This document shows positions 11,121-30,295 of a stretch of DNA of 64,000 nt, piece by piece. Location: positions 62,001 to 126,000 of the forward strand of contig CACNGC010000001.1 in NCBI GenBank assembly GCA_902619805.1, read 5' to 3'. The translations under genes were made by a program, and so were the position numbers. The stretch's first letter is position 1, and every line of letters begins with the position of its first letter. This DNA is from an uncultured SAR116 cluster alpha proteobacterium (GTDB taxonomy: Bacteria > Pseudomonadota > Alphaproteobacteria > Puniceispirillales > Marisalimonadaceae). The notes below the pieces were generated by a model, which was not told where the DNA came from, did no database searches, and saw only the letters and a program-made list of their open reading frames with translations.

Positions 11121-12380
11121 TTATCTTGGAAGTAAATCTTTAACTTCCTCATCCATTTGTTGTTGAAGTTCTTTCATATCATTATACTCGTCAGTAACAA
11201 TCCCTTCGATACTGTCGAAAATAACTTGAGTGATAGCAAGACCTTTATCACCAGGATATGCTTGCCAATCGCTCAGCAAGGGAAGTTGTCGAACTGCAGT
11301 CGCTTTATTAGGATTTTCTGAATAAAAGTCTTTCAAAACAATTTCGTTTGCTGCTTGGTTAGGTGGCATATAACCTGTTGTTCTAGCTACATCTGCAGCT
11401 CCCTCGCCTGAAGTAATAAATTTGAGCCACTTCCAAGAAGCATCAATTACTTTAGGATCTTTTGATTGTGATACTAACATTGCAGCATTACCACCAGCAG
11501 GCAAACCTTTTGGGCCTGATTTCACTAATCCAGGATACTCATTGGTTTTGAAGGTAAAATCAGTTTTATTTCTTTCTACAGCCGCCACTGAAGAAGTTGA
11601 CCAAAAAAACATTCCTGAGTTTCCTGAATTAAAAAATGCTTGAGCTTCGCCAGTACCTAAATTAGGCATATTACAGCCTTCAAAAAGCATTTTCATCGTC
11701 TCAAGGGCTTTTAGTCCTTCGGGAGTATTCATCATAAATTTTCCATTTTCCATAAGCGCTTGACCCTGACTCCACATCAGTGCTTGCAAAAACCAATTTC
11801 CAGTTATGTTCCATCCCCAAAACATCGGTTGCTTAACACCTGCGGCAATTAATTTTTTGCAAGCACCCACTACGTCTTCCCAAGTTTTAGGTAGATCATT
11901 TACTGATTTTACTCCTGCTTTCGCCATAACATCCATATTATAATAACCAATTGGCAATGAGATTGAGAAAGGTAATCCATACACTTTATCATTAAATTTT
12001 GATAAATTTAACATGGACGCATGGTAACCATCTTTTTTAAAGTTAGCTTCTTTAGCTATAAATGGCTCTAACGATTTTGCTATTCCCTTTTCGACTAGAA
12101 TAGCCTGTCTGTTCAAACCTTGCATTGTTACATCTGGAAGTTTGTTAGCAACAGCTTCTCTAAGAATTGAGTTTGTACCGTCTTCATAATTTTCATATGG
12201 AGCTCTTATTTTAATCTCAATATCTGGATGAGCTTTGTAAAATTTGGGAAGTATCTTTTCATACGTAATTTCAAAAAGACCAGCATAAGGATAAGCAAAT
12301 TCTACTACAACCTTAGCTTGTGCTACACCTAAAAATATTGTAGTCAAATATATTAGAGTAGCTGAGTAAAAGTTTTTCAT
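11121..12380 (-). CDS. ugpB: Glycerol-3-phosphate-type ABC transporter binding protein
   Basis: 419 residues with a signal peptide (about residues 1-22, ending VAQA). It belongs to the family-1 extracellular solute-binding proteins; the C-terminal half resembles UgpB of E. coli (TTGYMPPNQAANEIV, FYSENPNKATAVRQLPLL). The cargo is probably sn-glycerol 3-phosphate or a glycerophosphodiester given the neighbours, but related proteins bind sugars, so the substrate is inferred. It is the last gene of ugpC-A-E-B and is set off from ugpE by two hairpins and from the next gene by a palindromic terminator, which would let the binding protein be made in excess over the permease. Confidence 0.85.
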   Translation of the reverse strand: MKNFYSATLIYLTTIFLGVAQAKVVVEFAYPYAGLFEITYEKILPKFYKAHPDIEIKIRAPYENYEDGTNSILREAVANKLPDVTMQGLNRQAILVEKGIAKSLEPFIAKEANFKKDGYHASMLNLSKFNDKVYGLPFSISLPIGYYNMDVMAKAGVKSVNDLPKTWEDVVGACKKLIAAGVKQPMFWGWNITGNWFLQALMWSQGQALMENGKFMMNTPEGLKALETMKMLFEGCNMPNLGTGEAQAFFNSGNSGMFFWSTSSVAAVERNKTDFTFKTNEYPGLVKSGPKGLPAGGNAAMLVSQSKDPKVIDASWKWLKFITSGEGAADVARTTGYMPPNQAANEIVLKDFYSENPNKATAVRQLPLLSDWQAYPGDKGLAITQVIFDSIEGIVTDEYNDMKELQQQMDEEVKDLLPR

Positions 12381-12399
12381 TATTTTTTCTCCTATTCGA

Positions 12400-12430
12400 G
12401 GGGTTCTATGACCTTAAAACTTAGAACCCC
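12400..12430 (-). other. Stable hairpin just upstream of ugpB
   Basis: GGGGTTCTA (12400-12408) pairs with TAGAACCCC (12422-12430) around a 13-base loop. It lies in the ugpE-ugpB gap, in the leader of ugpB, about 20 bases ahead of the start codon. No U tract follows on the minus strand, so mRNA stabilisation or translation control fits better than termination. Confidence 0.55.
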
Positions 12431-12437
12431 GTTTTAT

Positions 12438-12459
12438 CATTTAGCTTGATTGCTAAATG
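12438..12459 (-). other. Hairpin just after ugpE
   Basis: CATTTAGC (12438-12445) pairs perfectly with GCTAAATG (12452-12459) around a six-base loop. It sits 12 bases past the ugpE stop on the minus strand. The following bases (ATAAAAC) are not a strong U tract. A 3'-end stabiliser or weak attenuator is possible. Confidence 0.5.
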
Positions 12460-12470
12460 AATTCTTTTAA

Positions 12471-13460
12471 TTATTTCATTCCAGAAAAAGTAATTCCTTC
12501 AATAAATCTTTTTTGAGCGATAAGAAACGCAACTATAAGTGGTGTGACAATAGTAACAGCTACTGCCATCATGGGTCCGTGCAAATCACCTTCAGTATCT
12601 TGTTTAAAAACTCTCATTCCAAGAGGAGGAGTAAATAAGTCAGGATCACCAGTTATAACTACTCTTGGCCAAAAATAATCATTCCAATGAGCGACCACAG
12701 AAAAAATTGCAAAAGCTAACAATGCTGGTACGGCAGTAGGAAGCATGACTCTCCATATTATAGAAAACTCACTCATCCCATCCATTCTTCCGGCATCAAT
12801 ATAATCATCAGGTACGGTCATAAAAAATTGTCTCATAAGAAAAATTCCAAAAACAGATATAGTCCAAGGTATAATTAATGCTGCATAAGAATTTGTTAAA
12901 CCTAATTTTGCAAGCATAATGTATAAAGGCAATGCAACAGCATGAATAGGAATTAGTAGACATAGTAAAACTAATGTGAAAATAAATTCTCTTCCTACGA
13001 ATCTTAATTTTGCGAGGGCATAAGCTGCTGGTAAAGCAACAACAACTTGTAATAAAAATATTGAAGCTGTTACTATTACTCCATTTAATAAATATCTCAG
13101 CAATGGTGCTTTTGTAAAAGCTTGGGTGTAATTCATATATGCAGGTTTTTTTAGACAATTTTCTGTTACATCTTTTAAAAGAATATTGTAGACTTCTCTT
13201 TCGGTTTTACCTGGCATTTTAAGCATTAAAGAATTAACTTCTTCCTTCTCAGGTGTATTAGATTTAAAGCAAAATTGATCAACAATTTTTTCCTGTGTTC
13301 CTAAAAAACCTGCTTTTTCTCCTTTAGAATTTTTCCCAGTTTCTATCTCTCCTTGTGACTGAAAAGAATAGCTCATCATGCTGTAAAAGGGGAGGATTAC
13401 AATAATTGCTCCCAATACTAGTAAAAAATGTTTTATTGGTTGACCAATGTCATAGTTCAT
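12471..13460 (-). CDS. ugpE: Glycerol-3-phosphate-type ABC permease UgpE, with loop insertion
   Basis: 329 residues, longer than UgpE of E. coli (281). Six membrane segments and the permease EAA loop (EFSIIWRVMLPTAVPALLAFAIF, with DAGRMDGMS just before) are visible. The extra length lies in the first periplasmic loop, roughly residues 40-105, a charged segment with two cysteines (C64, C102) that could form a disulfide. The start overlaps the ugpA end as ATGA. It works as a heterodimer with UgpA, energised by UgpC. The insertion is matched by a cysteine-bearing insertion in UgpA. Confidence 0.88.
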   Translation of the reverse strand: MNYDIGQPIKHFLLVLGAIIVILPFYSMMSYSFQSQGEIETGKNSKGEKAGFLGTQEKIVDQFCFKSNTPEKEEVNSLMLKMPGKTEREVYNILLKDVTENCLKKPAYMNYTQAFTKAPLLRYLLNGVIVTASIFLLQVVVALPAAYALAKLRFVGREFIFTLVLLCLLIPIHAVALPLYIMLAKLGLTNSYAALIIPWTISVFGIFLMRQFFMTVPDDYIDAGRMDGMSEFSIIWRVMLPTAVPALLAFAIFSVVAHWNDYFWPRVVITGDPDLFTPPLGMRVFKQDTEGDLHGPMMAVAVTIVTPLIVAFLIAQKRFIEGITFSGMK

Positions 13461-14419
13461 GAGTAGTGTACCTTTCTTTCAACTAGAAAACGTTGAATTA
13501 AGGTAATAGACAAAACTAAAATTAAAAATATAACAGAAATAGCTGCTCCAACTCCAATAAGGTTTTGTTTAATCCCTTTTTCAAAAATTGCAAACATCAT
13601 CACATATGCTGATTTGGAGGGTCCTGCGCTTCCAAATCCATAAAAAGCTTCAACTATATCAAACACCTGAAAAGCTTTTATGAACGATATAGTCACAACA
13701 AAAACTGTTGTAGGCCCCAAAGCAGGCCATGTTACTAACTTAAATCTTTCCCATCCAGATTTTGCTCCATCCATTTCAGCTGCCATATAAAGTTCTCTTG
13801 AAACACTGGTTAAACCTGCCAAATAAAGAACCATATTAAAACCAAATCCCTGCCAAACGCCAACAAAGCAAACTACCCAAATCGCATATTTTTTATCTCC
13901 TAACCAGTTAGGCATGTTGCCGTTACATATAGAGCCATACCAACTTTCTGAGGCTTCCTGTCCAACAAAGGATAGGGTAAATAAATTGTATATATAATCA
14001 ATTTCACATCCGGAAGAGAGCAATCTATTTATTGAGCCTGCAGTAGGATGAAGCATAACTTGCCAAACTATTGCCATTGCCATCAAAGTTGCCATAACAG
14101 GTAAAAAATAGATTGTTTTATATATTTCGCTAAATCTTGTTATTGAATTAATTAATAGAGCAGCACCTAAGCCTAGTCCAACAGTAAGAGGCACAACAAC
14201 AATTACATATCTAAGCGTTGCTCCCCACATTTTTTCATATGATGATCTAGTAAAAATTTTGAAATAATTTTCAAAACCCACAAATTCAAAAGTTTTGTTG
14301 CCTAGTGAATAATCTGTGAAGCTTAAGAAAATTGCGATAGCAATTGGGATTCCAAATATTAGTAACATTAAAACTAATGCAGGAGATACAAACCAATAAT
14401 GTGCTATTCGTGAATTCAT
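13457..14419 (-). CDS. ugpA: Glycerol-3-phosphate-type ABC permease UgpA, with loop insertion
   Basis: 320 residues. N-terminal FVSPALVLMLLIFGIPIAIAIFLSF and the EAA motif MAAEMDGAKSGWERFKLVTWPALGP mark it as the UgpA/MalF-type permease. Between membrane helices, around residues 136-170, a segment with two cysteines (C138, C165) replaces the short loop usual in the family. Its ATG shares a base with the ugpC stop (TAATG), and ugpE follows with an ATGA overlap, so the three genes are translationally coupled. Substrate follows the operon call (glycerol 3-phosphate or glycerophosphodiester) and is inferred. Confidence 0.88.
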   Translation of the reverse strand: MNSRIAHYWFVSPALVLMLLIFGIPIAIAIFLSFTDYSLGNKTFEFVGFENYFKIFTRSSYEKMWGATLRYVIVVVPLTVGLGLGAALLINSITRFSEIYKTIYFLPVMATLMAMAIVWQVMLHPTAGSINRLLSSGCEIDYIYNLFTLSFVGQEASESWYGSICNGNMPNWLGDKKYAIWVVCFVGVWQGFGFNMVLYLAGLTSVSRELYMAAEMDGAKSGWERFKLVTWPALGPTTVFVVTISFIKAFQVFDIVEAFYGFGSAGPSKSAYVMMFAIFEKGIKQNLIGVGAAISVIFLILVLSITLIQRFLVERKVHYS

Positions 14420-15561
14420 TAAGCTATTTTTTTCTGGAAAGTATGATAAGAGGCATTAAATCTGACCCCATCTACATCAAAAAATAGAATCTTTTCTAGA
14501 TTTATAGAAAAATCAATGGAACTATCAACTTTAATATTAGTAAAATCACATTGGGATATTCTTATGATAATTTTATTGCTTAATGATTTAACTTTTAAAT
14601 GTAAAAAATAGTCTGAACCTAGATTCTCAATATGCTTTACTCTTCCATTAAATTGATTAGTTTTTTTATTTAAAATAATATTTTCAGACCTAAAACCAAT
14701 AAAAATTTTAGTATTTTTGATTTTAGTTTTAAAATTTGATTTGAAGTTACCTATTGATAAATAACCTAGTTTATCAGTAGTAGCAGGTAAAATATTAATT
14801 TTTGGAGAACCAATAAACTCTGCGACTTTAATACAATTTGGTTCAGAATAAATTTTGTTTGGTTCATCAAGCTGCAAAATTCTGCCATCCATCATTACTG
14901 CCATTCTGTTAGACATCGTGAGTGCCTCGGCTTGATCATGAGTTACATAGATAAATGTAATCCCTAATTTCTTATGAAGTTCAGACAACTCTGATCGCAT
15001 ATGCACCCTTAAGGCTGCATCTAAATTTGATAATGGCTCGTCCATCAGAAAAGCTATTGGTTTTCTAACCATTGCTCTACCAAGAGCTGCTCTTTGCCTT
15101 TGTCCTCCAGACAATTGTCCAGGTTTTCTATTTAAAAGTTTTTTTAATCTTAAAATTTCGGCTGTTTCTGAAACAAGAATATCCAATTTTTCAAGTTTTT
15201 TTTTGGCAAAATACTTGCCAATTAAAGGGAATCTTTGAAATGACGACAAATCTCTCAATTTTAATGGAGTTAACATATTTTCTTTTACTGTTAAATGAGG
15301 GTAAAGTGCATATGATTGAAAAACCATTGCAAGATTCCTATCGGACGGTCTGACAAAAGTAACATCTTTTTGGTCAATATAAATCTTACCAGAATTGATT
15401 TGTTCTAAACCAGCTATAATTCTTAATAAAGTTGATTTTCCGCAGCCAGACGGACCAACTAGTGTTATGAACTCTTTACTCTTAATTTCTATAGAAATAT
15501 CTTCGATTACACTTGTATTTCCATATGATTTATATATTTCTTTTACTAGAATATTAGACAT
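14419..15561 (-). CDS. ugpC: Glycerol-3-phosphate-type ABC transporter ATPase UgpC
   Basis: 380 residues. ABC ATPase with Walker A GPSGCGKSTLLR, signature QLSGGQRQRAALGRA, Walker B AFLMDEPLSNLDA and the H-loop THDQAEA, followed by a C-terminal TOBE/MOI-type regulatory domain (about 240-380). UgpC/MalK-type. First gene of the ugpCAEB operon; the 136-base gap upstream is AT-rich and is where a promoter would lie, though I see no clear Pho box there. An insertion in the helical subdomain (SSFQRFPLIGKYFAKKKLEKLD) is a little longer than usual. Confidence 0.9.
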   Translation of the reverse strand: MSNILVKEIYKSYGNTSVIEDISIEIKSKEFITLVGPSGCGKSTLLRIIAGLEQINSGKIYIDQKDVTFVRPSDRNLAMVFQSYALYPHLTVKENMLTPLKLRDLSSFQRFPLIGKYFAKKKLEKLDILVSETAEILRLKKLLNRKPGQLSGGQRQRAALGRAMVRKPIAFLMDEPLSNLDAALRVHMRSELSELHKKLGITFIYVTHDQAEALTMSNRMAVMMDGRILQLDEPNKIYSEPNCIKVAEFIGSPKINILPATTDKLGYLSIGNFKSNFKTKIKNTKIFIGFRSENIILNKKTNQFNGRVKHIENLGSDYFLHLKVKSLSNKIIIRISQCDFTNIKVDSSIDFSINLEKILFFDVDGVRFNASYHTFQKKIA

Positions 15562-18016: not shown

Positions 18017-19378
18017 CTAGTTATTTTTATCTTCAATACCAATTAATAATCTTCTTAATTTCGCTGACATTGTGTCTATACACATAACTGCAATCAACAC
18101 TAAGATAGCCATATATGCTACGTTTTCGAAGTCATTACCTGTCATAAGGGCACCTAAGAAATGTAAACCAATACCTCCAGCTCCCATTGCCCCAATAATA
18201 ACTGCTGCTCGCGTGTTTGATTCTAAGTAATATAAACTTTGAGATATGAAGATTGGCATTATTTGTGGAATTATTCCAAATCTGTGCTGGAGGACTTTGT
18301 TTGCTCCAGTCGATTGAATTCCTTCTTTGTCTTTTTTATCAGTATTTTCAATAGCTTCAGACATTAATTTTCCGAGCGTGCCTGTATCTGTGAATGCTAT
18401 TGCAAAGATACCAGTAAACAAACCAGGTCCAAAAGCTCTTAAAAATATTAGACTCCAAATAAGCATGTCTATACCACGTAACATGTCAAAAAGTCTTCTT
18501 AGGAAAAATCTAATTGAGGAAAGTGGGGTAACATTGTAAGCAGCAAGAAAAGCTAATGGAAGTCCAACAATAGAGGCTATTAACGTGCCAAGAATAGCCA
18601 TTAATAAAGTTTCGACCATAGCAAATAATACAGTATCATGATGCCAAATTTCGTTTCCCCAAAATTCTTTTATCACTAAATTAAAGTTTGAGATTTCAGG
18701 ATCGACCCTATTTTTATCAAACATAAGTGCGATACCTTCGAAAAACCCTTTTCCCTCCAAGGGACTATTAAAATCAAACCAAAAATATTTCCATCCTAAC
18801 TCATATCTATGAACTTCAACTTTTGATCCGTAAACTTGAAGTCTTTCATATAAAGAAGGCCTAACTTCAACTTTATTTTCAGTTGCACGCATCCAACTTG
18901 GTAACAATTCTTCTTTACCAACATAGTTTTCTACATAAGGTTTGCCTTCTTGATTAAGTTTGAAAACAAAAGTTTCTTTTGTTTTTGGAAAATTTCTCAT
19001 TTCAACCCTGTTAGGAAAAAAAACAAATTTTCCACCATTTTCAAAATTCACAGTTGTAGATTTCTTTTGATTGTCTCTGATCAACCATGATGGATCTTGT
19101 TTATAAACCTCTCTATATCCACCTTCAAATCGTACATCGATCTTTTCTGGCTCTTTCCAATTCATTTTTATGTGATCTTTGTGAGCATATATATCCAGCA
19201 TAAACATAGATGCTCTATCATTATTCCATTTTTTGGCTAATCCTGGTAAATTGAAATGGATTATAGACCCAATTAAGTAAATCAAAAAAACACAAGCTGA
19301 AATAATAAGAATTCTAATATGCTTTTTATGCTTTATTTCTACTTCATTGCTAATGTCATGAGTTATAGCATAATTCAT
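18017..19378 (-). CDS. phnE: Phosphonate ABC permease PhnE2 with a large periplasmic loop
   Basis: 453 residues, much longer than an ordinary PhnE (about 260-290). After a first membrane helix (21-40) comes a ~200-residue hydrophilic loop rich in aromatic and charged residues (about 45-245), then the PhnE permease core: LRRLFDMLRGIDMLIWSLIF, the GTLGKLMSEAIENTDKKDKEGIQSTGA cytoplasmic loop and IGAMGAGGIG. It overlaps phnE1 as TAATG and should form the channel with it. The loop lies on the periplasmic side and may contact PhnD or the small exported protein encoded next. A two-permease PhnE arrangement is common in alphaproteobacteria. Confidence 0.9.
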   Translation of the reverse strand: MNYAITHDISNEVEIKHKKHIRILIISACVFLIYLIGSIIHFNLPGLAKKWNNDRASMFMLDIYAHKDHIKMNWKEPEKIDVRFEGGYREVYKQDPSWLIRDNQKKSTTVNFENGGKFVFFPNRVEMRNFPKTKETFVFKLNQEGKPYVENYVGKEELLPSWMRATENKVEVRPSLYERLQVYGSKVEVHRYELGWKYFWFDFNSPLEGKGFFEGIALMFDKNRVDPEISNFNLVIKEFWGNEIWHHDTVLFAMVETLLMAILGTLIASIVGLPLAFLAAYNVTPLSSIRFFLRRLFDMLRGIDMLIWSLIFLRAFGPGLFTGIFAIAFTDTGTLGKLMSEAIENTDKKDKEGIQSTGANKVLQHRFGIIPQIMPIFISQSLYYLESNTRAAVIIGAMGAGGIGLHFLGALMTGNDFENVAYMAILVLIAVMCIDTMSAKLRRLLIGIEDKNN

Positions 19379-20232
19379 TATTTATTATCTCCTATTAACC
19401 TACCTCTGAGAAATCTGGAGAAATAATCTAAGGAAATTATAGTGACAACTAATAAAAACATAATAGCTATAATTTCGTCCCCATATCTGAACTGAATTAC
19501 AGCTGACAAAGCTTCCCCAATTCCACCAGCTCCAACAAAACCTAGTATTGTTGAGGCGCGGACATTAATTTCTAATCTTAACAGAGTATATGAAATAAAA
19601 AGAGGAACAACTTGTGGTATAACTGCAAATCTTATTCTAGCCCACCAACGAGCGCCACATGATTGCAAACCTTCAATTGGTTTGCTATCGGCGTTTTCAA
19701 TTGCTTCGGAGAATAATTTTCCAAGAGCCCCAGCAGTATGTATCACAATTGCAATAACAGCAGGTAACTCTGATTTTCCCATTAAATATAAAAAAATCAT
19801 AGCAATAACTAGTTCTGGGAATGATCTTAAAATATCCATAGTTCTTCTAGCGAAAGTAACGATATATGGATTTTTAATTAAATTTTTACTCGCAAACAAG
19901 CTTAGGAGAAGAGCAAAGATTGCCCCAAACAGAGTTGAAAAAAAAGCCATATTGATAGTAGATATTAAATCTGGTAAATACTTAAATACATATGCGTACC
20001 ATCTCCAACCAGATTCAAAAGCTTCTTTGAAAAGATCAACAGGGTAATCGAAAAATTTACTTATTCCTCTTTCAAAACTACCAGCATTATTATTTTCTGC
20101 AATTGTAAGACCGCTTGATAGGAGAAAAATGACGGCCAAAATGCTGATTAAAGAATAAAGTAGTCTTTTAAAAGCCATAGCTTTCAAATTTTTTTCTATG
20201 GTATCAAAGCCTAATGCGAAGTCTGAATTCAT
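19378..20232 (-). CDS. phnE: Phosphonate ABC permease PhnE1
   Basis: 284 residues, normal for the family. Core signatures: RRTMDILRSFPELVIAMIFL, ALGKLFSEAIENADSKPIEGLQSCGARWWARIRFAVIPQVVPLFISY and LGFVGAGGIGEALS. These cytoplasmic-loop features are shared with PhnE2, its partner. It starts 83 bases after phnD, beyond a strong terminator-like hairpin at 20272-20302 that would lower its expression relative to the binding protein. The ribosome site is poor. Located in the inner membrane; imports phosphonates (and possibly phosphate esters) with PhnC and PhnD. Confidence 0.92.
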   Translation of the reverse strand: MNSDFALGFDTIEKNLKAMAFKRLLYSLISILAVIFLLSSGLTIAENNNAGSFERGISKFFDYPVDLFKEAFESGWRWYAYVFKYLPDLISTINMAFFSTLFGAIFALLLSLFASKNLIKNPYIVTFARRTMDILRSFPELVIAMIFLYLMGKSELPAVIAIVIHTAGALGKLFSEAIENADSKPIEGLQSCGARWWARIRFAVIPQVVPLFISYTLLRLEINVRASTILGFVGAGGIGEALSAVIQFRYGDEIIAIMFLLVVTIISLDYFSRFLRGRLIGDNK

Positions 20233-20271
20233 ATTTAAGTAACTCTAACGTATAAAATTTTTGTTATAAAA

Positions 20272-20302
20272 AAACGAAAGACAGAAAAACTGTCTTTCGT
20301 TT
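20272..20302 (-). terminator. Intercistronic terminator/attenuator between phnD and phnE1
   Basis: AAACGAAAGACAG (20272-20284) pairs perfectly over 13 bases with CTGTCTTTCGTTT (20290-20302); the loop is five A on the plus strand. On the minus strand the stem runs straight into a T run (CGTTTTTTTAT), the form of an intrinsic terminator. Sitting 14 bases past the phnD stop and 40 bases before phnE1, it would make PhnD more abundant than the permeases. Confidence 0.8.
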
Positions 20303-20315
20303 AAATATTAAATTA

Positions 20316-21275
20316 TTAGCCTTTTTTCTTTTTAGCTTCTAATTTTGCTTTTCTAGCCTTTACTACAACTTCATAGAAAGTATGATCAACTGGAACCCAG
20401 GCTTTAACTATTCCATTAGCAACATCTTCGCTACATTTTGGATCGTTCTTAAGTATCCATTGTTTCATTCCTACCATTACGTCTCTTGCCTCTTGAGGAA
20501 GTTTTTTAGGCATAACTATTGGACCGTTTGGAATAAGCTTTGAAGACCATACTTGTTCTAGGTCATCCATATTTAAAATACCTTTATCTACCATTTTTCT
20601 TAAGTTACCAGATGTGTAACCTTCTTCCCATTTACCTACACCTGATACCCATGTTACACCTGCATCAACGTCACCATTTAGAACAGCTAATACGTTGTTT
20701 TCATGACCACCAGAAAATTGTGTTCCAGAAAAATATGTATCTATATCAACATTATATAGTTCAGGAAGTTCAATAGATGGAATTAAATATCCAGATGTAG
20801 AGTTAGGGTCAGCAAAACCTAATTTTTTACCTTTTAGATCTTTCAGTGATTTAATACCAGAATCTTTTCTCGCTACCATTACTGAATAATAACCAGTATC
20901 ACCAGTAGGTTGCATTCTTGTTAAAACTGGAGTAACAGCATCAGGATTTTGAAGGTAAATTCCTGCATATCCGGAGGCTCCAAACCAACCATAGTCTAAG
21001 TTACCACCAAGCATTGATTCCATTGTTCCAGCATAATCTTTAAATGTAAACATTTTAGCTGGCACATTATATGCTTTTTCAATATAATCTTTTAGACATC
21101 CATTTCTTGCGATGATATCTTGGGATGCTTCATCTCCAAGAAAACCAATTCTGAACTCAGGCTGAAATTTACTGAGGTCCATTTTTGGTCCATCGTATTT
21201 TTTATCTGCATTAGCTGTAGAGACCATTAAAAAAGCGGTCATTACAGCTAAAAAACTATATAATTTTTTTAACAT
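20316..21275 (-). CDS. phnD: Phosphonate ABC transporter binding protein PhnD
   Basis: 319 residues with a signal peptide ending near STANA (residue 23). PhnD family features: EFRIGFLGDEASQDIIARNGCLKDYIEKAYNVPAKMFTFKDY, YGWFGASGYAGIYLQ, KLGFADPNSTSGYLIPSIEL, GGHENNVLAVLNGDVDAGVTW and IPNGPIVMPKKLP. It captures phosphonates in the periplasm and delivers them to PhnE. The ending KARKAKLEAKKKKG is very basic. The start has GGAGAA eight bases upstream; phnC lies 47 bases before it. Specific ligand (methylphosphonate, 2-aminoethylphosphonate or other) cannot be read from sequence. Confidence 0.93.
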   Translation of the reverse strand: MLKKLYSFLAVMTAFLMVSTANADKKYDGPKMDLSKFQPEFRIGFLGDEASQDIIARNGCLKDYIEKAYNVPAKMFTFKDYAGTMESMLGGNLDYGWFGASGYAGIYLQNPDAVTPVLTRMQPTGDTGYYSVMVARKDSGIKSLKDLKGKKLGFADPNSTSGYLIPSIELPELYNVDIDTYFSGTQFSGGHENNVLAVLNGDVDAGVTWVSGVGKWEEGYTSGNLRKMVDKGILNMDDLEQVWSSKLIPNGPIVMPKKLPQEARDVMVGMKQWILKNDPKCSEDVANGIVKAWVPVDHTFYEVVVKARKAKLEAKKKKG

Positions 21276-21322
21276 TTATATTTCTCCATTGATTTAAGTT
21301 TGGTCTTCTAATTTTCATAAGT

Positions 21323-22126
21323 TCACGCAGTTTTTTTAATATCTGCGCTCTCTAATGAAACTGATGTCATAGTGCCTTCAAAAGCTTCGTCAGCTTCAGC
21401 ACCATAAATTTCTCTAGCTTTTTGATTTGTAAGTTTTGATGGTAAATCATCAAACACTATTTCTCCGTTCTGCATACCAATAATACGATCACAATACTGC
21501 TTTGCAGTATCTAGAGTATGTAGGTTACAAATCACTGTGATATTTTGTTCATCGTGAATTTTTCTAAGAGATTCCATAACAAGTCTAGCATTTAAAGGAT
21601 CTAATGAAGCTATAGGTTCGTCTGCAAGGATTAGTTTAGGGTCTTGCATCATAGCTCTACATATTGCAACTCTTTGTTGCTGACCACCAGAGAGTGTTTC
21701 AGCTCTTTGTAAAGCAGTCTGTAACATGCCAAATTTGTCTAGTAAGCTTAGTGCGACATGTCTTTCTTCAGACGTAAAAAGTTTTAAACTAGCACGCACA
21801 GTAGACATCTCATTTAATTTGCCTAACATAACATTAGTAAGAACATCCAATCTTGGAACAAGATTAAACTGTTGGAATATCATGGCACAATTTTTTTGCC
21901 ATGCGAGTTTATCCTTTTTCTTCAACTCTAATATATTTTGATCTTTAAAAAGAATTTCGCCAGAGGTGGCATCAGTGAGTCTGTTTATCGTTCTTAATAA
22001 TGTAGATTTGCCAGCACCTGATCTACCAATAATTCCTATCATTGAGGAATTTTCAACATTTATTGAAACGTTATTAACAGCTTTAACTTGATCGAAATAT
22101 TTTGAGATATTAATTATTTTGAGCAT
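21323..22126 (-). CDS. phnC: Phosphonate ABC transporter ATPase PhnC
   Basis: 267 residues. Walker A GRSGAGKSTLLR, signature TLSGGQQQRVAICRAMMQ, Walker B LILADEPIASLDPLNAR. The DKLAWQKNCAMIFQQFNLVPRLDVLTNVMLG stretch is typical of PhnC. Leads the operon phnC-phnD-phnE1-phnE2-small exported protein and perhaps the PHP and metallophosphoesterase genes. GGAG lies seven bases before the ATG. A Pho-box-like motif stands 29-46 bases upstream. It has a C-terminal extension of about 20 residues (ADEAFEGTMTSVSLESADIK) beyond the ATPase core. Confidence 0.93.
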   Translation of the reverse strand: MLKIINISKYFDQVKAVNNVSINVENSSMIGIIGRSGAGKSTLLRTINRLTDATSGEILFKDQNILELKKKDKLAWQKNCAMIFQQFNLVPRLDVLTNVMLGKLNEMSTVRASLKLFTSEERHVALSLLDKFGMLQTALQRAETLSGGQQQRVAICRAMMQDPKLILADEPIASLDPLNARLVMESLRKIHDEQNITVICNLHTLDTAKQYCDRIIGMQNGEIVFDDLPSKLTNQKAREIYGAEADEAFEGTMTSVSLESADIKKTA

Positions 22127-25181: not shown

Positions 25182-25296
25182 AATTAATCCTTCACAAAAA
25201 TCATGTAGAAATATCTTATAAAAAATTTATATTATTACAAACTATAGTTTGATATTATAGAGATCTAAAATTATACCGAATTTATTGAGGCTTGCT

Positions 25297-27060
25297 GTGT
25301 TAGACAACCAAATTATTAATATCAGAAGTGAAGTGGATAATTGGTTGCAGAGTTTCAATCAAGCTATTTCTCAGCAAAAAAATAAAGATGAATCTATAAA
25401 AATTCTTTCCAATTTATTTTTTGAAGATAGTCATTGGAGAGACATTTTAGCTCTTACATGGAAGATACAAACTGTATCGGGAAAATCAAAAGTAATCGAA
25501 AATCTTTACAACAAAATAATGGACGTTTCCGCCAAGAGTTTCCAAATTGACCAGCAAAGAACACTTCCAAGAGAAGTCATAAGAGCTGGAAAAAATGTTA
25601 TTGAAGTTATTTTAAGATTCAAAACAAAGTTTGGAAATTGTGAGGGAGTAGTTCGTTTATTTGAAGATCAAGAAAGAAAGGGTTATTTTAAAGCCTGGAG
25701 TCTTCTGACTGCCCTAAGTGATCTAAGTTCTTCTGACAAAAAAAACAATGAACAATATCAAAATGTACTAGAAGGACCTAATTGGTTAGATAAAAGAAAT
25801 GAAGATAGGCTTTATAAAAACAGGGAACCAAAAGTGATTGTTGTTGGAAGTGGTCAGGCTGGTCTTTCAATTGCAGCAAGGCTTAAACAACAAAATATAG
25901 ATACACTTATTGTAGATAAAAATGAAAGAATAGGAGATAACTGGAGAAATAGATATCATTCTTTAAAATTACATAATCAGACACTTGTTAATCATTTACC
26001 TTATATGCCTTTTCCTTCTACTTGGCCAACATATATTCCAAAAGATAAGTTGGCAGGGTGGTTTGAGTATTATGTTGAAAGTATGGAATTAAATGTATGG
26101 ACTAATACAAAATTTATTGGGGCGGAATATGACGAAAATAAAAAGCACTGGAAAGTAAAACTCAAATTATCTGATGATACTATTAAGATCATGAAGCCAA
26201 AGCATATTGTGATGGCTGTTGGTGTAAGCTCAGTTCCAAATCGCACAAAAATACCTGGCATGGATCACTATAAAGGCAAGGTCATTCACTCAGCAGATTA
26301 TGATAATGGAAAACACTACAATGGAAAAAACGTTTTAGTTTACGGTACTGGAACAAGTGCACATGATGTTGCACAAGATCTCTATGCTCATGGAGCAAAT
26401 GTAAAAATCGTACAACGCTCACCATCTATGGTAGTTAATGTGGAACCTAGCGCACAATTGCCATATCAATTATATAATGAAGGTCCAAATACTGACGATT
26501 GTGATTTAATAACCATTTCAACACCTCTACAAGTACTCAAAAAGACACACCAGTTATTAACTGAAAAAACTAAGAGAATTGATAAACCACTTTTGGATAA
26601 ACTTACAAGAGTTGGCTTTAACCTTGAATATGGAGAAGAAAACTCTGGGTGGCAATTTAAATATTTAACAAGGGGTGGTGGTTATTATTTCAATGTAGGA
26701 GCATCAGATTTAATCGCAGATGGTAAGATAAAAGTTTTACAATTTTCAAACATTGAAAATTTTTTACCCTCTGGCATTGAAATGAAATCAGGAGAAAAGC
26801 TTGATATAGATTTGATGGTTACAGCTACTGGATATAAAGGTCAAGAATATGTTGTAGAAGAATTATTTGGCAAAGCAGTTGTAGACAAAATTGGTCCGAT
26901 TTGGGGGTTTGATGATGAAAGGCAAGAATTAAGAAATATGTGGATGCAAACCAAACAGCCAGGACTTTGGTTTCATGCAGGAAGTTTAGCTCAGTGCAGA
27001 ATTTTTTCAAAGTTTCTAGCTTTGCATATAAAAGCAATTAATGAGGGTATTTTAATTTAA
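25297..27060 (+). CDS. Flavin-containing monooxygenase with N-terminal NTF2-like domain
   Basis: I choose the GTG at 25297, which has GAGG six bases upstream; a TTG at 25285 is in frame but has no ribosome site. This gives 587 residues. An N-terminal SnoaL/NTF2-like domain (about 1-145) precedes the monooxygenase: FAD site VIVVGSGQAGLSIAARL, WRNRYHSLKLHNQ, the FMO-type YKGKVIHSADY, the NADPH site VLVYGTGTSAHDVAQ and the MVTATGY motif near the end. The closing segment PGLWFHAGSLAQCRIFSKFLALHIKA is typical of this FMO subfamily. It oxidises a soft heteroatom or a ketone; the substrate is unknown. Confidence 0.87.
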   Translation: MLDNQIINIRSEVDNWLQSFNQAISQQKNKDESIKILSNLFFEDSHWRDILALTWKIQTVSGKSKVIENLYNKIMDVSAKSFQIDQQRTLPREVIRAGKNVIEVILRFKTKFGNCEGVVRLFEDQERKGYFKAWSLLTALSDLSSSDKKNNEQYQNVLEGPNWLDKRNEDRLYKNREPKVIVVGSGQAGLSIAARLKQQNIDTLIVDKNERIGDNWRNRYHSLKLHNQTLVNHLPYMPFPSTWPTYIPKDKLAGWFEYYVESMELNVWTNTKFIGAEYDENKKHWKVKLKLSDDTIKIMKPKHIVMAVGVSSVPNRTKIPGMDHYKGKVIHSADYDNGKHYNGKNVLVYGTGTSAHDVAQDLYAHGANVKIVQRSPSMVVNVEPSAQLPYQLYNEGPNTDDCDLITISTPLQVLKKTHQLLTEKTKRIDKPLLDKLTRVGFNLEYGEENSGWQFKYLTRGGGYYFNVGASDLIADGKIKVLQFSNIENFLPSGIEMKSGEKLDIDLMVTATGYKGQEYVVEELFGKAVVDKIGPIWGFDDERQELRNMWMQTKQPGLWFHAGSLAQCRIFSKFLALHIKAINEGILI

Positions 27061-27086
27061 GTTTTTAGAAATTTATAGCAATAAAA

Positions 27087-27104
27087 CTGTAATAAAAGTC
27101 CTAT
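27087..27104 (+). promoter_or_regulatory. Candidate Pho box upstream of plcP
   Basis: CTGTAAT (27087-27093), four A, then GTCCTAT (27098-27104), preceded by AAAA. This is the spacing of a PhoB box and shares AAAACTGTAAT with phnC and phnM. It lies 39-56 bases before the plcP start. The second half is only a partial match. Confidence 0.4.
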
Positions 27105-27142: not shown

Positions 27143-27946
27143 ATGGTTGAATTAAAAAAAAAAAATATATACAGAGCCATATGGATTTCAGACATTCACT
27201 TAGGTTCTTCAGGTGCGCAAGCAGAACATCTTCTTGAGTTTTTAAAATATAATGAAAGTAAATATCTCTATTTAGTTGGTGATATTATAGATGGGTGGCG
27301 TTTAACTAAAAAGTGGTATTGGCCTCAATCTCATAATGATGTAATTCAAAAAATACTAAGAAAAGCTAGAAAAGGAACAAATATTACTTTTATTCCAGGC
27401 AATCATGATGAGGGTGCAAGAACTTTTTTAGGTATGACATTTGGTGATATCAAAATCAAAAATGAGGCTTTTCACAAAACTGCAAAGAAAGAAAAATTAT
27501 GGATAGTTCATGGTGATCTTTTTGACGAAGTAATGCAACATGCCAGATGGCTAGCGTATTTAGGAGACTCAGCATATACTTTTCTTTTATGGCTAAATAG
27601 ATGGTTTAACAAAATAAGACGTTTTTTTAATTTACCGTATTGGTCACTATCTAAGTATCTAAAATTAAAAGTTAAAAAAGCAGTTTCTTTTATAAATGCA
27701 TTTGAAACTCTTATGGTAAAAGAGGCGTCTAGAAGAGGATGTGATGGTGTGGTATGTGGTCATATACATAAATCTGAATTAAAAAAGATTAATAACTTAA
27801 TTTATGCTAACGATGGTGACTGGGTTGAGTCTCTTACTGCTCTTGTTGAGCACGGAGATGGTGAGCTAGAAATTATTAACTGGAGTGAATTGGGTCATGA
27901 GTTTAAATTTGATCAAGATCTACTCAAACCTAAACAAATAGCATGA
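27143..27946 (+). CDS. plcP: Phospholipase C-like metallophosphoesterase PlcP
   Basis: 267 residues. Calcineurin-type metal motifs SDIHLGS (D17, H19), GDIIDGW, GNHDEG, VHGDLFD and CGHIHKS. The WYWPQSHNDV and DEVMQHARWLAYLGDSAYTFLLWLNRW stretches match PlcP, which under phosphate starvation removes the phosphate head group of phospholipids to give diacylglycerol, as known in Sinorhizobium and marine bacteria. The alternative, an LpxH-like UDP-diacylglucosamine hydrolase, is less likely because the next gene, overlapping by ATGA, is an Agt-type glycosyltransferase. A Pho-box-like motif stands upstream. Acts at the inner membrane surface. Confidence 0.9.
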   Translation: MVELKKKNIYRAIWISDIHLGSSGAQAEHLLEFLKYNESKYLYLVGDIIDGWRLTKKWYWPQSHNDVIQKILRKARKGTNITFIPGNHDEGARTFLGMTFGDIKIKNEAFHKTAKKEKLWIVHGDLFDEVMQHARWLAYLGDSAYTFLLWLNRWFNKIRRFFNLPYWSLSKYLKLKVKKAVSFINAFETLMVKEASRRGCDGVVCGHIHKSELKKINNLIYANDGDWVESLTALVEHGDGELEIINWSELGHEFKFDQDLLKPKQIA

Positions 27947-29328
27947 AAATTATAATAGTTACAGATGCGTGGTATCCTCAAGTCAATGGGGTAGTAAGAA
28001 CTCTTGATGAAACATCCAAGCAATTAAAAAAATTAGGTCATGAGGTTAAGCTGATCACTCCAGAACATTTTTTAACAATACCATGCCCAACTTATCCTGA
28101 AATAAAATTATCTCTTTTTCCAGGTGCAAAAGTTTCATCTATGATCAGAGATTTTAATCCTGATTGTCTTCATATTTCAACTGAAGGTCCTTTAGGTCTT
28201 GCAGCACGTGGATATGCTAGTAGAAATGGTTTGGCTTTCACTTCTGCTTATCACACTAGGTTCCCTGAGTATGTTTATGCAAGAACAAAACTTCCACTTA
28301 AAATCACTTATTCATTCTTAAGATGGTTTCACAATAGATCCGAACTTGTGATGGTGCCAACTGAAGAAGTTAAAAAAGATTTAATTAAATACAAAATTGG
28401 GAATCCTAAAATATGGTCAAGAGGTGTAGACTTAGATATTTTTAAACCAAAAAAAGGAAGAAGAAAAAATAAAAATCCAATTTTGTTAAATGTAGGAAGG
28501 GTAGCTGTAGAAAAAAATTTACAAGAATTTTTAAAAATAGACCTCCCATATGAAAAATGGGTTGTAGGAGATGGACCCGCATTTAAAGAATTAAAGAAAA
28601 AATACCCTAAGGTAATTTTTCATGGAGCTAAGAGTAAAGAAGAGTTAGAATATTACTATAACAAAGCAGATGTATTTGTCTTTCCGAGTAAAACGGACAC
28701 ATTTGGCCTTGTATTATTAGAGGCTATGGCATGTGGTCTTCCTGTTGCTGCTTTCCCAGTAAGTGGTCCTTTAGATGTTATTGGTGATTCGAATGCAGGT
28801 ATTCTAAATTATAACTTAAAAGAAGCATGTAAAAAGGCTTTGTTGATACCAAGAAAAGTGCCAAGAGAATACGCTAAAAAATTTTCATGGGAATCAACAA
28901 GTAAAACATTTGAGTCTTATCTAGTTAGCATAAGAGACAAAGACACTACATACAACATTGAAGACAATCCTCATAAGGGTAATACTGGAATTACAAGAGC
29001 ACTTCATGCGGCTAAAAACTCATGGTCAGGTTTAATTTTTGCACTCCGAGAAGAAAGCGCTTTTAGGCAAGAAATGTTTTTAGTAATAATTTCCTTATCT
29101 GTAATAATTATTGCAGAAGTTAGTACTCTTGAAATAATATTCATGACTTTTGCAACTTCTCTCGTTTTAATTATAGAACTATTAAATTCTAGCGTTGAAG
29201 CAGCTGTTGATAGAATATCGTTTGAATATCATGGTTTGTCTAAAAGAGCTAAGGACTACGGTTCAGCTGCTGTTATGCTGTCACTTTTTTTATGGACTTT
29301 AATTCATGGATTGGTGTTGTTTAATTAG
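27943..29328 (+). CDS. agt: Agt-type lipid glycosyltransferase fused to DgkA diacylglycerol kinase
   Basis: 461 residues in one unbroken frame. Residues 1-330 are a GT4 glycosyltransferase (MKIIIVTDAWYPQVNGVVRT, NVGRVAVEKN, VVGDGP, and the nucleotide-sugar motif D252-x7-E260 in TDTFGLVLLEAM), like Agt, which glycosylates diacylglycerol in phosphate-starved marine bacteria. After a short linker, residues 349-461 are a whole DgkA domain aligning without gaps to E. coli DgkA: E371, R375, E377, E412, N415, E419, D423, K437 and D438 match all catalytic positions, with three membrane helices. Both halves use diacylglycerol, the PlcP product. The ATG overlaps the plcP stop. The fusion is unfamiliar to me. 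Confidence 0.92.
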   Translation: MKIIIVTDAWYPQVNGVVRTLDETSKQLKKLGHEVKLITPEHFLTIPCPTYPEIKLSLFPGAKVSSMIRDFNPDCLHISTEGPLGLAARGYASRNGLAFTSAYHTRFPEYVYARTKLPLKITYSFLRWFHNRSELVMVPTEEVKKDLIKYKIGNPKIWSRGVDLDIFKPKKGRRKNKNPILLNVGRVAVEKNLQEFLKIDLPYEKWVVGDGPAFKELKKKYPKVIFHGAKSKEELEYYYNKADVFVFPSKTDTFGLVLLEAMACGLPVAAFPVSGPLDVIGDSNAGILNYNLKEACKKALLIPRKVPREYAKKFSWESTSKTFESYLVSIRDKDTTYNIEDNPHKGNTGITRALHAAKNSWSGLIFALREESAFRQEMFLVIISLSVIIIAEVSTLEIIFMTFATSLVLIIELLNSSVEAAVDRISFEYHGLSKRAKDYGSAAVMLSLFLWTLIHGLVLFN

Positions 29329-29334
29329 AGTTTT

Positions 29335-30219
29335 TTAAGGTCTGATTTTTGTGCCAGTTAATTTTTCATAAGTAAGAGCGACATTGCTCATATCAGCATC
29401 TTCTCCAAACTCGTCAATAGTCCTATTTAACAATTCCTGAGATAATTTTCCTAAAGGAATATCAATTTTATTTGCATTGGCTATTTTTGTCGCTACACTT
29501 GCATCCTTCTTCATTAAACCAGTGCTAAAACCCTGAAACATTTTACCAGATAAAATATTATCAGGGAGTGTGATTTCAGTGGCATAGTTTCTACCAGAAC
29601 TTTTTTGAATAATTTCAACTGCTCTATTTGAATCAACACCATCCTTAACAAGAAGTGAGATAACCTCAAAAGTTGCCATCCTACAAATTAAATTAAGTAA
29701 ATTGTTGCCAGCTTTAATAGAGTGTCCTGATCCTATTTTACCAGCATAGAAAATATTTGAACTTATATCATCCATTATAGGTTTTATTTTTGCGAATTGG
29801 CTTTCTGTCCCACCTACCATTATAGCTATATTTCCTTGATGAGCCCCTTTTGGACCTCCACTAACTGGAGCATCTATAAAATTAATCTCTTTTTCTTTAA
29901 GTATTTTAGCTATTTTCCTTGTGGTTTCAGGTTCCCCTGTGGTCATATCAATAATGTAAGAACCTTTTGTTGCTGATTTAATTAATCCATTTTCTCCATT
30001 AATAACTTTGTCTACGATTGCACTTGTGGGCAAACATAAAAAAATTATAGATGTAGTTGAAGCTAATTCTGAGGGGGTAGAGCATGATATTGCTCCTTTA
30101 TTTGTAAAATACTCTAATTTTTTTTGATCAAGATCATAAACAAAAAGCTCATTATTTATAAGCAATCTATCAGCAAGTGGTTTGCCCATGTTACCTAAAC
30201 CAATGAAACCAACTTTCAT
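29335..30219 (-). CDS. Beta-hydroxyacid dehydrogenase (3-hydroxyisobutyrate dehydrogenase / tartronate semialdehyde reductase family)
   Basis: Start set at 30219 (MKVGFIGLGNMG) where AAGGA lies five bases upstream; the longer TTG frame adds a tail that breaks the usual N-terminus. 294 residues. NAD(P)-binding GFIGLGNMGKPLA, substrate motif DAPVSGGPKGAHQG, and the catalytic lysine in GSGHSIKAGNNLLN. The family oxidises or reduces small beta-hydroxyacids. 3-hydroxyisobutyrate, glycerate and L-threonate-type substrates are all possible; neighbours do not decide. It converges with the agt-dgkA gene, ending six bases from it. Confidence 0.85.
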   Translation of the reverse strand: MKVGFIGLGNMGKPLADRLLINNELFVYDLDQKKLEYFTNKGAISCSTPSELASTTSIIFLCLPTSAIVDKVINGENGLIKSATKGSYIIDMTTGEPETTRKIAKILKEKEINFIDAPVSGGPKGAHQGNIAIMVGGTESQFAKIKPIMDDISSNIFYAGKIGSGHSIKAGNNLLNLICRMATFEVISLLVKDGVDSNRAVEIIQKSSGRNYATEITLPDNILSGKMFQGFSTGLMKKDASVATKIANANKIDIPLGKLSQELLNRTIDEFGEDADMSNVALTYEKLTGTKIRP

Positions 30220-30295
30220 TGAAGTCCTTACCTCCAATTTAATCAAAATTGTCTTATAAATAATCTAATATAAAATTAGAAGAAAATAAATGATA

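Follow-up and report, generated by a model that had tools for sequence, protein, structure and literature searches.

Many ocean bacteria respond to scarce phosphate by replacing phospholipids with glycolipids. To our knowledge, the usual remodelling scheme leaves out the fate of the diacylglycerol (DAG) that is not glycosylated. E. coli DgkA, a small stand-alone protein that forms trimers with a cytoplasmic N terminus, recycles DAG released when, for instance, envelope glycans or lipid A are modified. The described route to MGDG and GADG under phosphorus limitation uses plcP followed by an Agt-type GT4 glycosyltransferase gene, as found in SAR11 HTCC7211, Pseudomonas aeruginosa (PA3219-PA3218) and Methylosinus trichosporium, and in the available text of these papers DgkA is neither linked to the pair nor fused to it (PMC4796936, PMC8231724, PMC8528852, PMC9239053). 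In P. putida, PlcP and a DagK are both lipid-remodelling proteins raised under Pi depletion; in the available part of that report they are separate proteins, the kinase family is unstated and no Agt fusion appears (PMC5082522). Next to pst, phoRB, ppk and alkaline phosphatase, the phosphate island of HIMB59 carries genes that bear the labels LpxH, RfaG and DGK; the accessible portion of the paper classes the glycosyltransferase and diacylglycerol kinase as having no direct phosphorus function and mentions no fusion (PMC10734472). The three HIMB59 genes are likely plcP, agt and dgkA. Annotation may need correcting: where phosphate islands list LpxH, RfaG and DGK, the products are probably PlcP, Agt and the kinase that partners it.

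The window analysed here, 64,000 nucleotides of a contig from an uncultured SAR116 bacterium, likewise has plcP directly before an Agt-type GT4 gene. Its Agt bears a whole C-terminal DgkA, so that this DgkA, unlike that of E. coli, sits behind a 330-aa glycosyltransferase. The original prediction knew of no description of such a fusion, and a literature search likewise found neither an Agt-DgkA fusion nor a plcP-agt-dgkA operon in the texts available (including PMC13086504, PMC6852614 and PMC8547437; an earlier mention is possible). Both enzymes and the pathway are already known; the fusion architecture and DgkA as a third member are, as far as seen, new. The reading favoured here, and considered probable, is that the fusion is a membrane-anchored enzyme with two activities, placed at the DAG branch point in the lipid remodelling that saves phosphorus.

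The fused gene and its two halves

27143..27946, + strand: plcP-type metallophosphoesterase gene (Pfam Metallophos; adjoins the fusion upstream in relatives too)
27943..29328, + strand: agt-dgkA fusion gene, 461 aa (single open frame; both domains above Pfam cut-offs)
27943..28932, + strand: GT4 Agt-type glycosyltransferase part, aa 1-330 (Pfam; GT-B fold in the model)
28933..28986, + strand: linker, aa 331-348 (low model confidence, block pLDDT 48-59)
28987..29325, + strand: DgkA part, aa 349-461 (Pfam DAGK_prokar, gap-free match to a solved DgkA, invariant catalytic residues)

The fusion had been described as one unbroken frame of 461 codons downstream of plcP, and this is what the window holds. 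The frame starts with ATG at 27943, ends with TAG at 29326-29328 and contains no internal stop. The end of plcP and the start of the fusion, both on the + strand, share four bases (ATGA), so the two genes are probably translated together, and the same neighbour is found in relatives. The name PlcP for the upstream gene is our assumption, drawn from gene context and general knowledge; this metallophosphoesterase matched no curated PlcP model.

Pfam confirmed a GT4 part followed by a complete DgkA. Glyco_transf_4 was matched at residues 14-165 (E 1.7e-24), Glycos_transf_1 at 168-288 (E 1.9e-23) and DAGK_prokar (PF01219) at 359-459, over profile positions 2-102 of 102 (E 3.9e-28). The last is a full-length domain scoring 97.7 bits against a curated cut-off of 22.3, and DAGK_cat (PF00781) is absent from the Pfam matches of the fusion protein. 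No curated equivalog cut-off was reached by the glycosyltransferase (GT) part. It belongs with the PlcP-Agt pairs by two other marks: it clusters with the Agt of plcP operons in the GT tree, and it lies beside plcP on the same strand in the window and in relatives. Its identity to the best-matched Agt-only loci among L062-L121 is 45-59%, and 41-45% for the viral ones.

The kinase half had been described as aligning gap-free with E. coli DgkA and keeping nine catalytic residues, and both points were borne out. Residues 346-454 of the fusion align without a gap on residues 3-111 of the solved DgkA 2kdc, which we take to be the E. coli enzyme, and the best solved-structure match is a diacylglycerol kinase. 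E371, R375, E377, E412, N415, E419, D423, K437 and D438, which presumably have a catalytic role in DgkA, stand at the stated numbers. They do not vary among the 18 fusions of alignment A1, nor across 38 rows made up of 37 distinct fused DgkA domains and the window. In full-length domain, gap-free alignment and catalytic residues the fusion thus resembles E. coli-type DgkA.

The family PF01219 includes both DAG kinases and undecaprenol kinases, and sequence alone, as tested, does not separate the two kinds. The C-terminal part could accordingly be an undecaprenol kinase and not a DAG kinase; the gap-free best match to a solved diacylglycerol kinase speaks against this, as do its partners, a PlcP-type phosphoesterase and an Agt-type GT, and we regard it as very unlikely.

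Purifying selection acts on both halves of the fusion. Against six distinct relatives of 85-89% identity (L010 and L052 gave identical figures and were counted once), dN/dS was 0.05-0.09 for the GT half and 0.12-0.15 for the DgkA half. Comparison with the near-identical L032 gave 0.11 for GT and 0.45 for DgkA, on very few changes. On this sequence record the kinase part looks active.

The AlphaFold2 model of the fusion (pLDDT 83.9, pTM 0.68) has a GT-B head plus three further long helices, with a low-confidence stretch at residues 331-370 (blocks of pLDDT 48-61) covering the linker and the first DgkA helix. A fold search with the GT part returned MshA, BshA and other GT4 enzymes as best matches, which identifies the GT-B fold and nothing finer. 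No membrane helix is predicted in the Agt part alone, and three come from the DgkA part. Given the cytoplasmic N terminus of E. coli-type DgkA, the Agt head would lie on the UDP-sugar side.

These predicted helices would suit a DgkA part that acts chiefly as an anchor or scaffold, its trimer keeping Agt membrane-bound and close to DAG, with kinase activity minor or lost. Free-standing Agt also speaks for this reading, since it functions in other lineages, as the known pathway illustrates; of the Agt loci L062-L121, 60 in all and taken from named bacteria and viral contigs, none has DgkA within the stretch around the locus. The invariance of the nine catalytic residues in 37 distinct domains counts against an anchor, and so does the occurrence of dgkA as a separate gene beside plcP-agt in Burkholderiaceae (below), where it cannot serve as one. 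This explanation is considered unlikely.

Distribution of the fusion and its tie to PlcP

A protein 97-98% identical to the fusion is encoded on the named SAR116 contigs L032, L033, L034 and L056. The genome to which the window belongs is 91% complete in 52 contigs. Across 72 genomes of the SAR116 order, each at least 80% complete, profile matches revealed the whole fusion in 23, the GT part alone in nine, DgkA alone in one (G052), a weak partial-GT match in six and no match in 33. Reading frames were intact in 22 of the 23 fusion genomes. The only broken copy in the order (G089, locus L317) ends within the DgkA part, with a 379-aa frame followed by a 74-aa DgkA piece, which reflects either decay or assembly error.

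Intact fused frames were present at 30 of the 31 loci L001-L031, on all 30 named contigs L032-L061 and at all ten loci L122-L131, sets that share some genomes. The exception in the first set, L002 of G052, has DgkA without GT. An assembly error splitting the frame, named in the original prediction as grounds for abandoning it, is excluded: the fused frame recurs in relatives, including the single-contig genomes G058, G063 and G069. The fusion is no assembly artefact. Nor is it confined to one genome, since the search for GT4-DgkA architecture found it intact in 22 of the order's 72 genomes and, in a second alphaproteobacterial family, f11, in 13 of 32.

Linkage to plcP, which had also been proposed for checking, holds in both groups. 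The fusion lies directly behind plcP at 30 of 30 GT-bearing loci of L001-L031, on 30 of 30 contigs L032-L061 and at 13 of 13 fused f11 loci.

The distribution is patchy across the genera of the order. In the window the pair is bordered by flavoprotein and dehydrogenase genes (25285-27060 and 29335-30246). At L040 and L053 these genes adjoin each other and the plcP-fusion lies a few kb off; the plcP-fusion cassette has thus moved. L062 and L065 carry a SAR116-like Agt without DgkA, and the convergent gene behind it resembles an acyltransferase, judged from the frame.

PlcP was found in 31 of the 72 genomes, namely all 23 with the fusion and eight without a DgkA match. The fusion is accordingly present in 23 of 31 PlcP genomes (one of the 23 broken) against none of 41 PlcP-less genomes, counts that are neither independent nor free of misses because the genomes share ancestry and may lack as much as a fifth of their content. 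The eight PlcP genomes without a DgkA match count against a general need for the kinase. Together with the 60 Agt loci described above, they indicate that Agt works without linked DgkA in most lineages.

In the window's own genome the fusion holds the sole DgkA, and each of the 41 relatives with any DgkA match has a single match. The expected absence of stand-alone dgkA from fusion genomes was upheld: none was found in the 23 fusion genomes of the order, and a second DAG kinase of the DgkB type (DAGK_cat, PF00781) was found in none of these 23, the window's own genome included. DAGK_cat occurs in three of the 72 genomes, all of genus g6 and all without the fusion.

A further explanation is that the kinase handles DAG from other sources, such as envelope glycan or lipid A modification, and that its fusion to Agt is incidental. 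General recycling of this kind is the role of DgkA in E. coli. It fits poorly with the absence of the fusion from all 41 PlcP-less genomes, where the one lone DgkA (G052) is a probable f11-like contaminant, and with the unfused dgkA found beside plcP-agt in other families, also in another gene order; it is held to be quite unlikely. The stand-alone DgkA of G052 was set aside because its contig shares 88-95% identity with an f11 contig and probably reflects contamination or faulty binning; the listed contamination of G052 is 5%.

Outside the order, DgkA was detected in 44 of 289 sampled alphaproteobacterial genomes. GT was sought at 30 of these loci and the other 14 were judged by frame length; the locus with the longest frame among the 14 (G397) was fetched and gave no GT match. 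Within this sample the fusion occurs in the window's own order and in f11 only. The 13 fused f11 genomes have a single frame behind plcP. In one f11 genus (G234, G410) agt and dgkA are two overlapping genes in different frames, and one f11 genome has dgkA without agt. No 16S was found in the f11 genomes G383, G315 and G234; a likeness of f11 to HIMB59 is a guess from island content.

Linkage of agt and dgkA is not universal in the phylum sample, where G431, G441, G475 and G479 combine a strong Agt match with a distant dgkA. Ten agt-like genes lie on the viral-collection contigs L112-L121, nine of them with plcP directly upstream; these are possibly phage-borne lipid remodelling genes or misassigned host contigs. 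Some P. aeruginosa plasmids (matches H5-H7) also carry an agt-like gene, and the match touches a gene annotated as UDP-2,3-diacylglucosamine diphosphatase, which is probably plcP.

Unfused operons and the history of the fusion

Genus g349 was assigned to Burkholderiaceae because its 16S is 93.9% like that of Cupriavidus. Unfused plcP-agt-dgkA operons were present at all 32 of its loci L195-L197 and L204-L232, and at 30 of 39 further agt loci hand-picked from the remaining matches; dgkA is in two pieces at L276, and L263 is cut at a contig end. At the other nine loci dgkA is about 6.5 kb (L269) or 7.8 kb (L252) away or, in seven, outside the stretch; among these seven genomes it lies about 42 kb off in G744 and G826 and on another contig in G777. 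Whole-profile matches in g349 had looked like fusions and were rejected after the frame check, which resolved them into two separate genes, agt of about 342 aa and dgkA of about 134 aa. In many g349 loci the two genes share one frame with a stop between them.

Other genera of Burkholderiaceae (L198-L202) have the same gene order, in four of five cases by the distance rule; the dgkA match of L202 starts about 240 bases past the agt match. Two g307 genomes of another family, G480 (L311) and G500 (L312), have the order dgkA-plcP-agt, and their DgkA falls outside the clade of fused DgkA in the DgkA tree.

Phylogenies were computed for GT (70 rows) and DgkA (101 rows, 123 columns), with SH-aLRT supports from quick trees. 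In the GT tree SAR116 and f11 form one clade (98), in which f11 branches with the sequences from the window's own family (96). Agt-only proteins, L062 and L166 among them, are also nested in this clade. The place of some f11 rows may be pulled by their odd letter make-up. Holding the SAR116 proteins together without f11 was rejected (p 0.0094). In the DgkA tree the fused domains and the DgkA of Burkholderiaceae operons form one clade (93) apart from other stand-alone DgkA; SAR116 and f11 are separate groups within it, and a single fused clade was not rejected (p 0.61).

Most simply, an old plcP-agt-dgkA set would have fused once and been transferred between the SAR116 order and f11; some lines would then have lost DgkA, and in G234 and G410 the gene would later have split. 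One fusion with transfer and a later split is favoured by the GT tree, whereas the DgkA tree is too short to settle the matter. Independent fusions in SAR116 and f11 were set aside, as the same GT-tree test (p 0.0094) counts against them and the DgkA tree is undecided; two separate fusions are possible. The arrangement in G234 and G410 is probably a split of a once-fused gene. A run of six A stands just before the agt stop at both of their loci (L161:6551-6576 and L237), and slippage may restore the fusion there.

A proposed DAG branch point and the phosphorus context

The original prediction offered three roles for the fusion: a switch between glycolipid and phospholipid synthesis, a buffer against toxic DAG, or a membrane anchor for Agt. 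Either of the first two may apply. A functional kinase with a place in remodelling is indicated by the invariance of its catalytic residues, by the plcP-agt-dgkA operons that are unfused elsewhere and by the co-occurrence of DgkA with PlcP, and this makes a bare membrane-anchor role for the DgkA part unlikely. A bifunctional enzyme at the DAG branch point would operate as follows. PlcP would remove the phospholipid head group and so supply DAG to the inner leaflet. Agt, the N-terminal part, would transfer sugar, presumably from a UDP-sugar, to DAG and give a phosphorus-free glycolipid, and the C-terminal DgkA part would phosphorylate the DAG left unglycosylated; the resulting phosphatidic acid could re-enter phospholipid synthesis. 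Both active sites are predicted to be cytoplasmic and joined by a short flexible linker. Judging by the families to which they belong, the two halves would compete for DAG.

If DgkA is trimeric here as in E. coli, each trimer would bear three Agt heads and the two DAG users would be fixed at 1:1. Tying both users together would fix their ratio and prevent DAG build-up. With the ratio fixed, how much DAG goes to glycolipid and how much to phospholipid would depend on the available UDP-sugar and ATP, not on separate gene expression. This more specific version, a self-balancing DAG valve in which a DgkA trimer and three Agt heads share a local DAG pool with the ratio set by UDP-sugar and ATP, and in which DgkA is the overlooked third member of plcP-agt, an operon gene in Burkholderiaceae and fused in SAR116 and a second family, is put forward tentatively, as an idea that may well hold yet stops short of being probable.

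The occurrence of the fusion across the SAR116 order, tied to PlcP, suggests that re-phosphorylation of DAG belongs to the pathway. A single membrane protein probably decides the fate of DAG when phosphate is scarce, and the fusion offers one protein in which DAG partition could be measured directly.

Three further features of the window bear on its phosphorus context.

27076..27093, + strand: weak Pho-box-like stretch ahead of plcP (agrees with the consensus at 9 of 14 bases)
18017..22126, - strand: phosphonate transporter genes phnC, phnD and two phnE (all four above curated NCBIfam cut-offs)
11121..15561, - strand: ugp-like ABC transporter genes (best NCBIfam names UgpB, UgpE, UgpA and UgpC, all below cut-off)

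The Pho-box-like stretch lies in an aligned block partly conserved in near relatives. It was not significant, with 99 of 200 shuffles scoring as well. Upstream of plcP in Burkholderiaceae, Pho boxes were significant in nine of ten chosen loci, with at most 3 of 200 shuffles as good. A level of at most 5 of 200 was reached in three of 22 upstream stretches in SAR116 and in none of four in f11.

The phn genes stand 5 kb upstream of the plcP-fusion pair on the opposite strand. From its best family names the ugp-like transporter is a probable system for uptake of glycerol-3-phosphate or a related compound. Two of the five SAR116 flanks examined (L048, where one protein was scanned, and L058) showed no evident phosphorus gene, judged from frame starts. 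Among relatives, the pair is flanked by alkaline phosphatase at L159 and by a phosphate-selective porin at L160, with Ppk further off. At L057 it lies beside a histidine kinase, a PhoB-type regulator, a PstS-like protein and a Pst permease, and at L059 beside a Pst-type permease and ATPase, PhoU, Ppx and Ppk.
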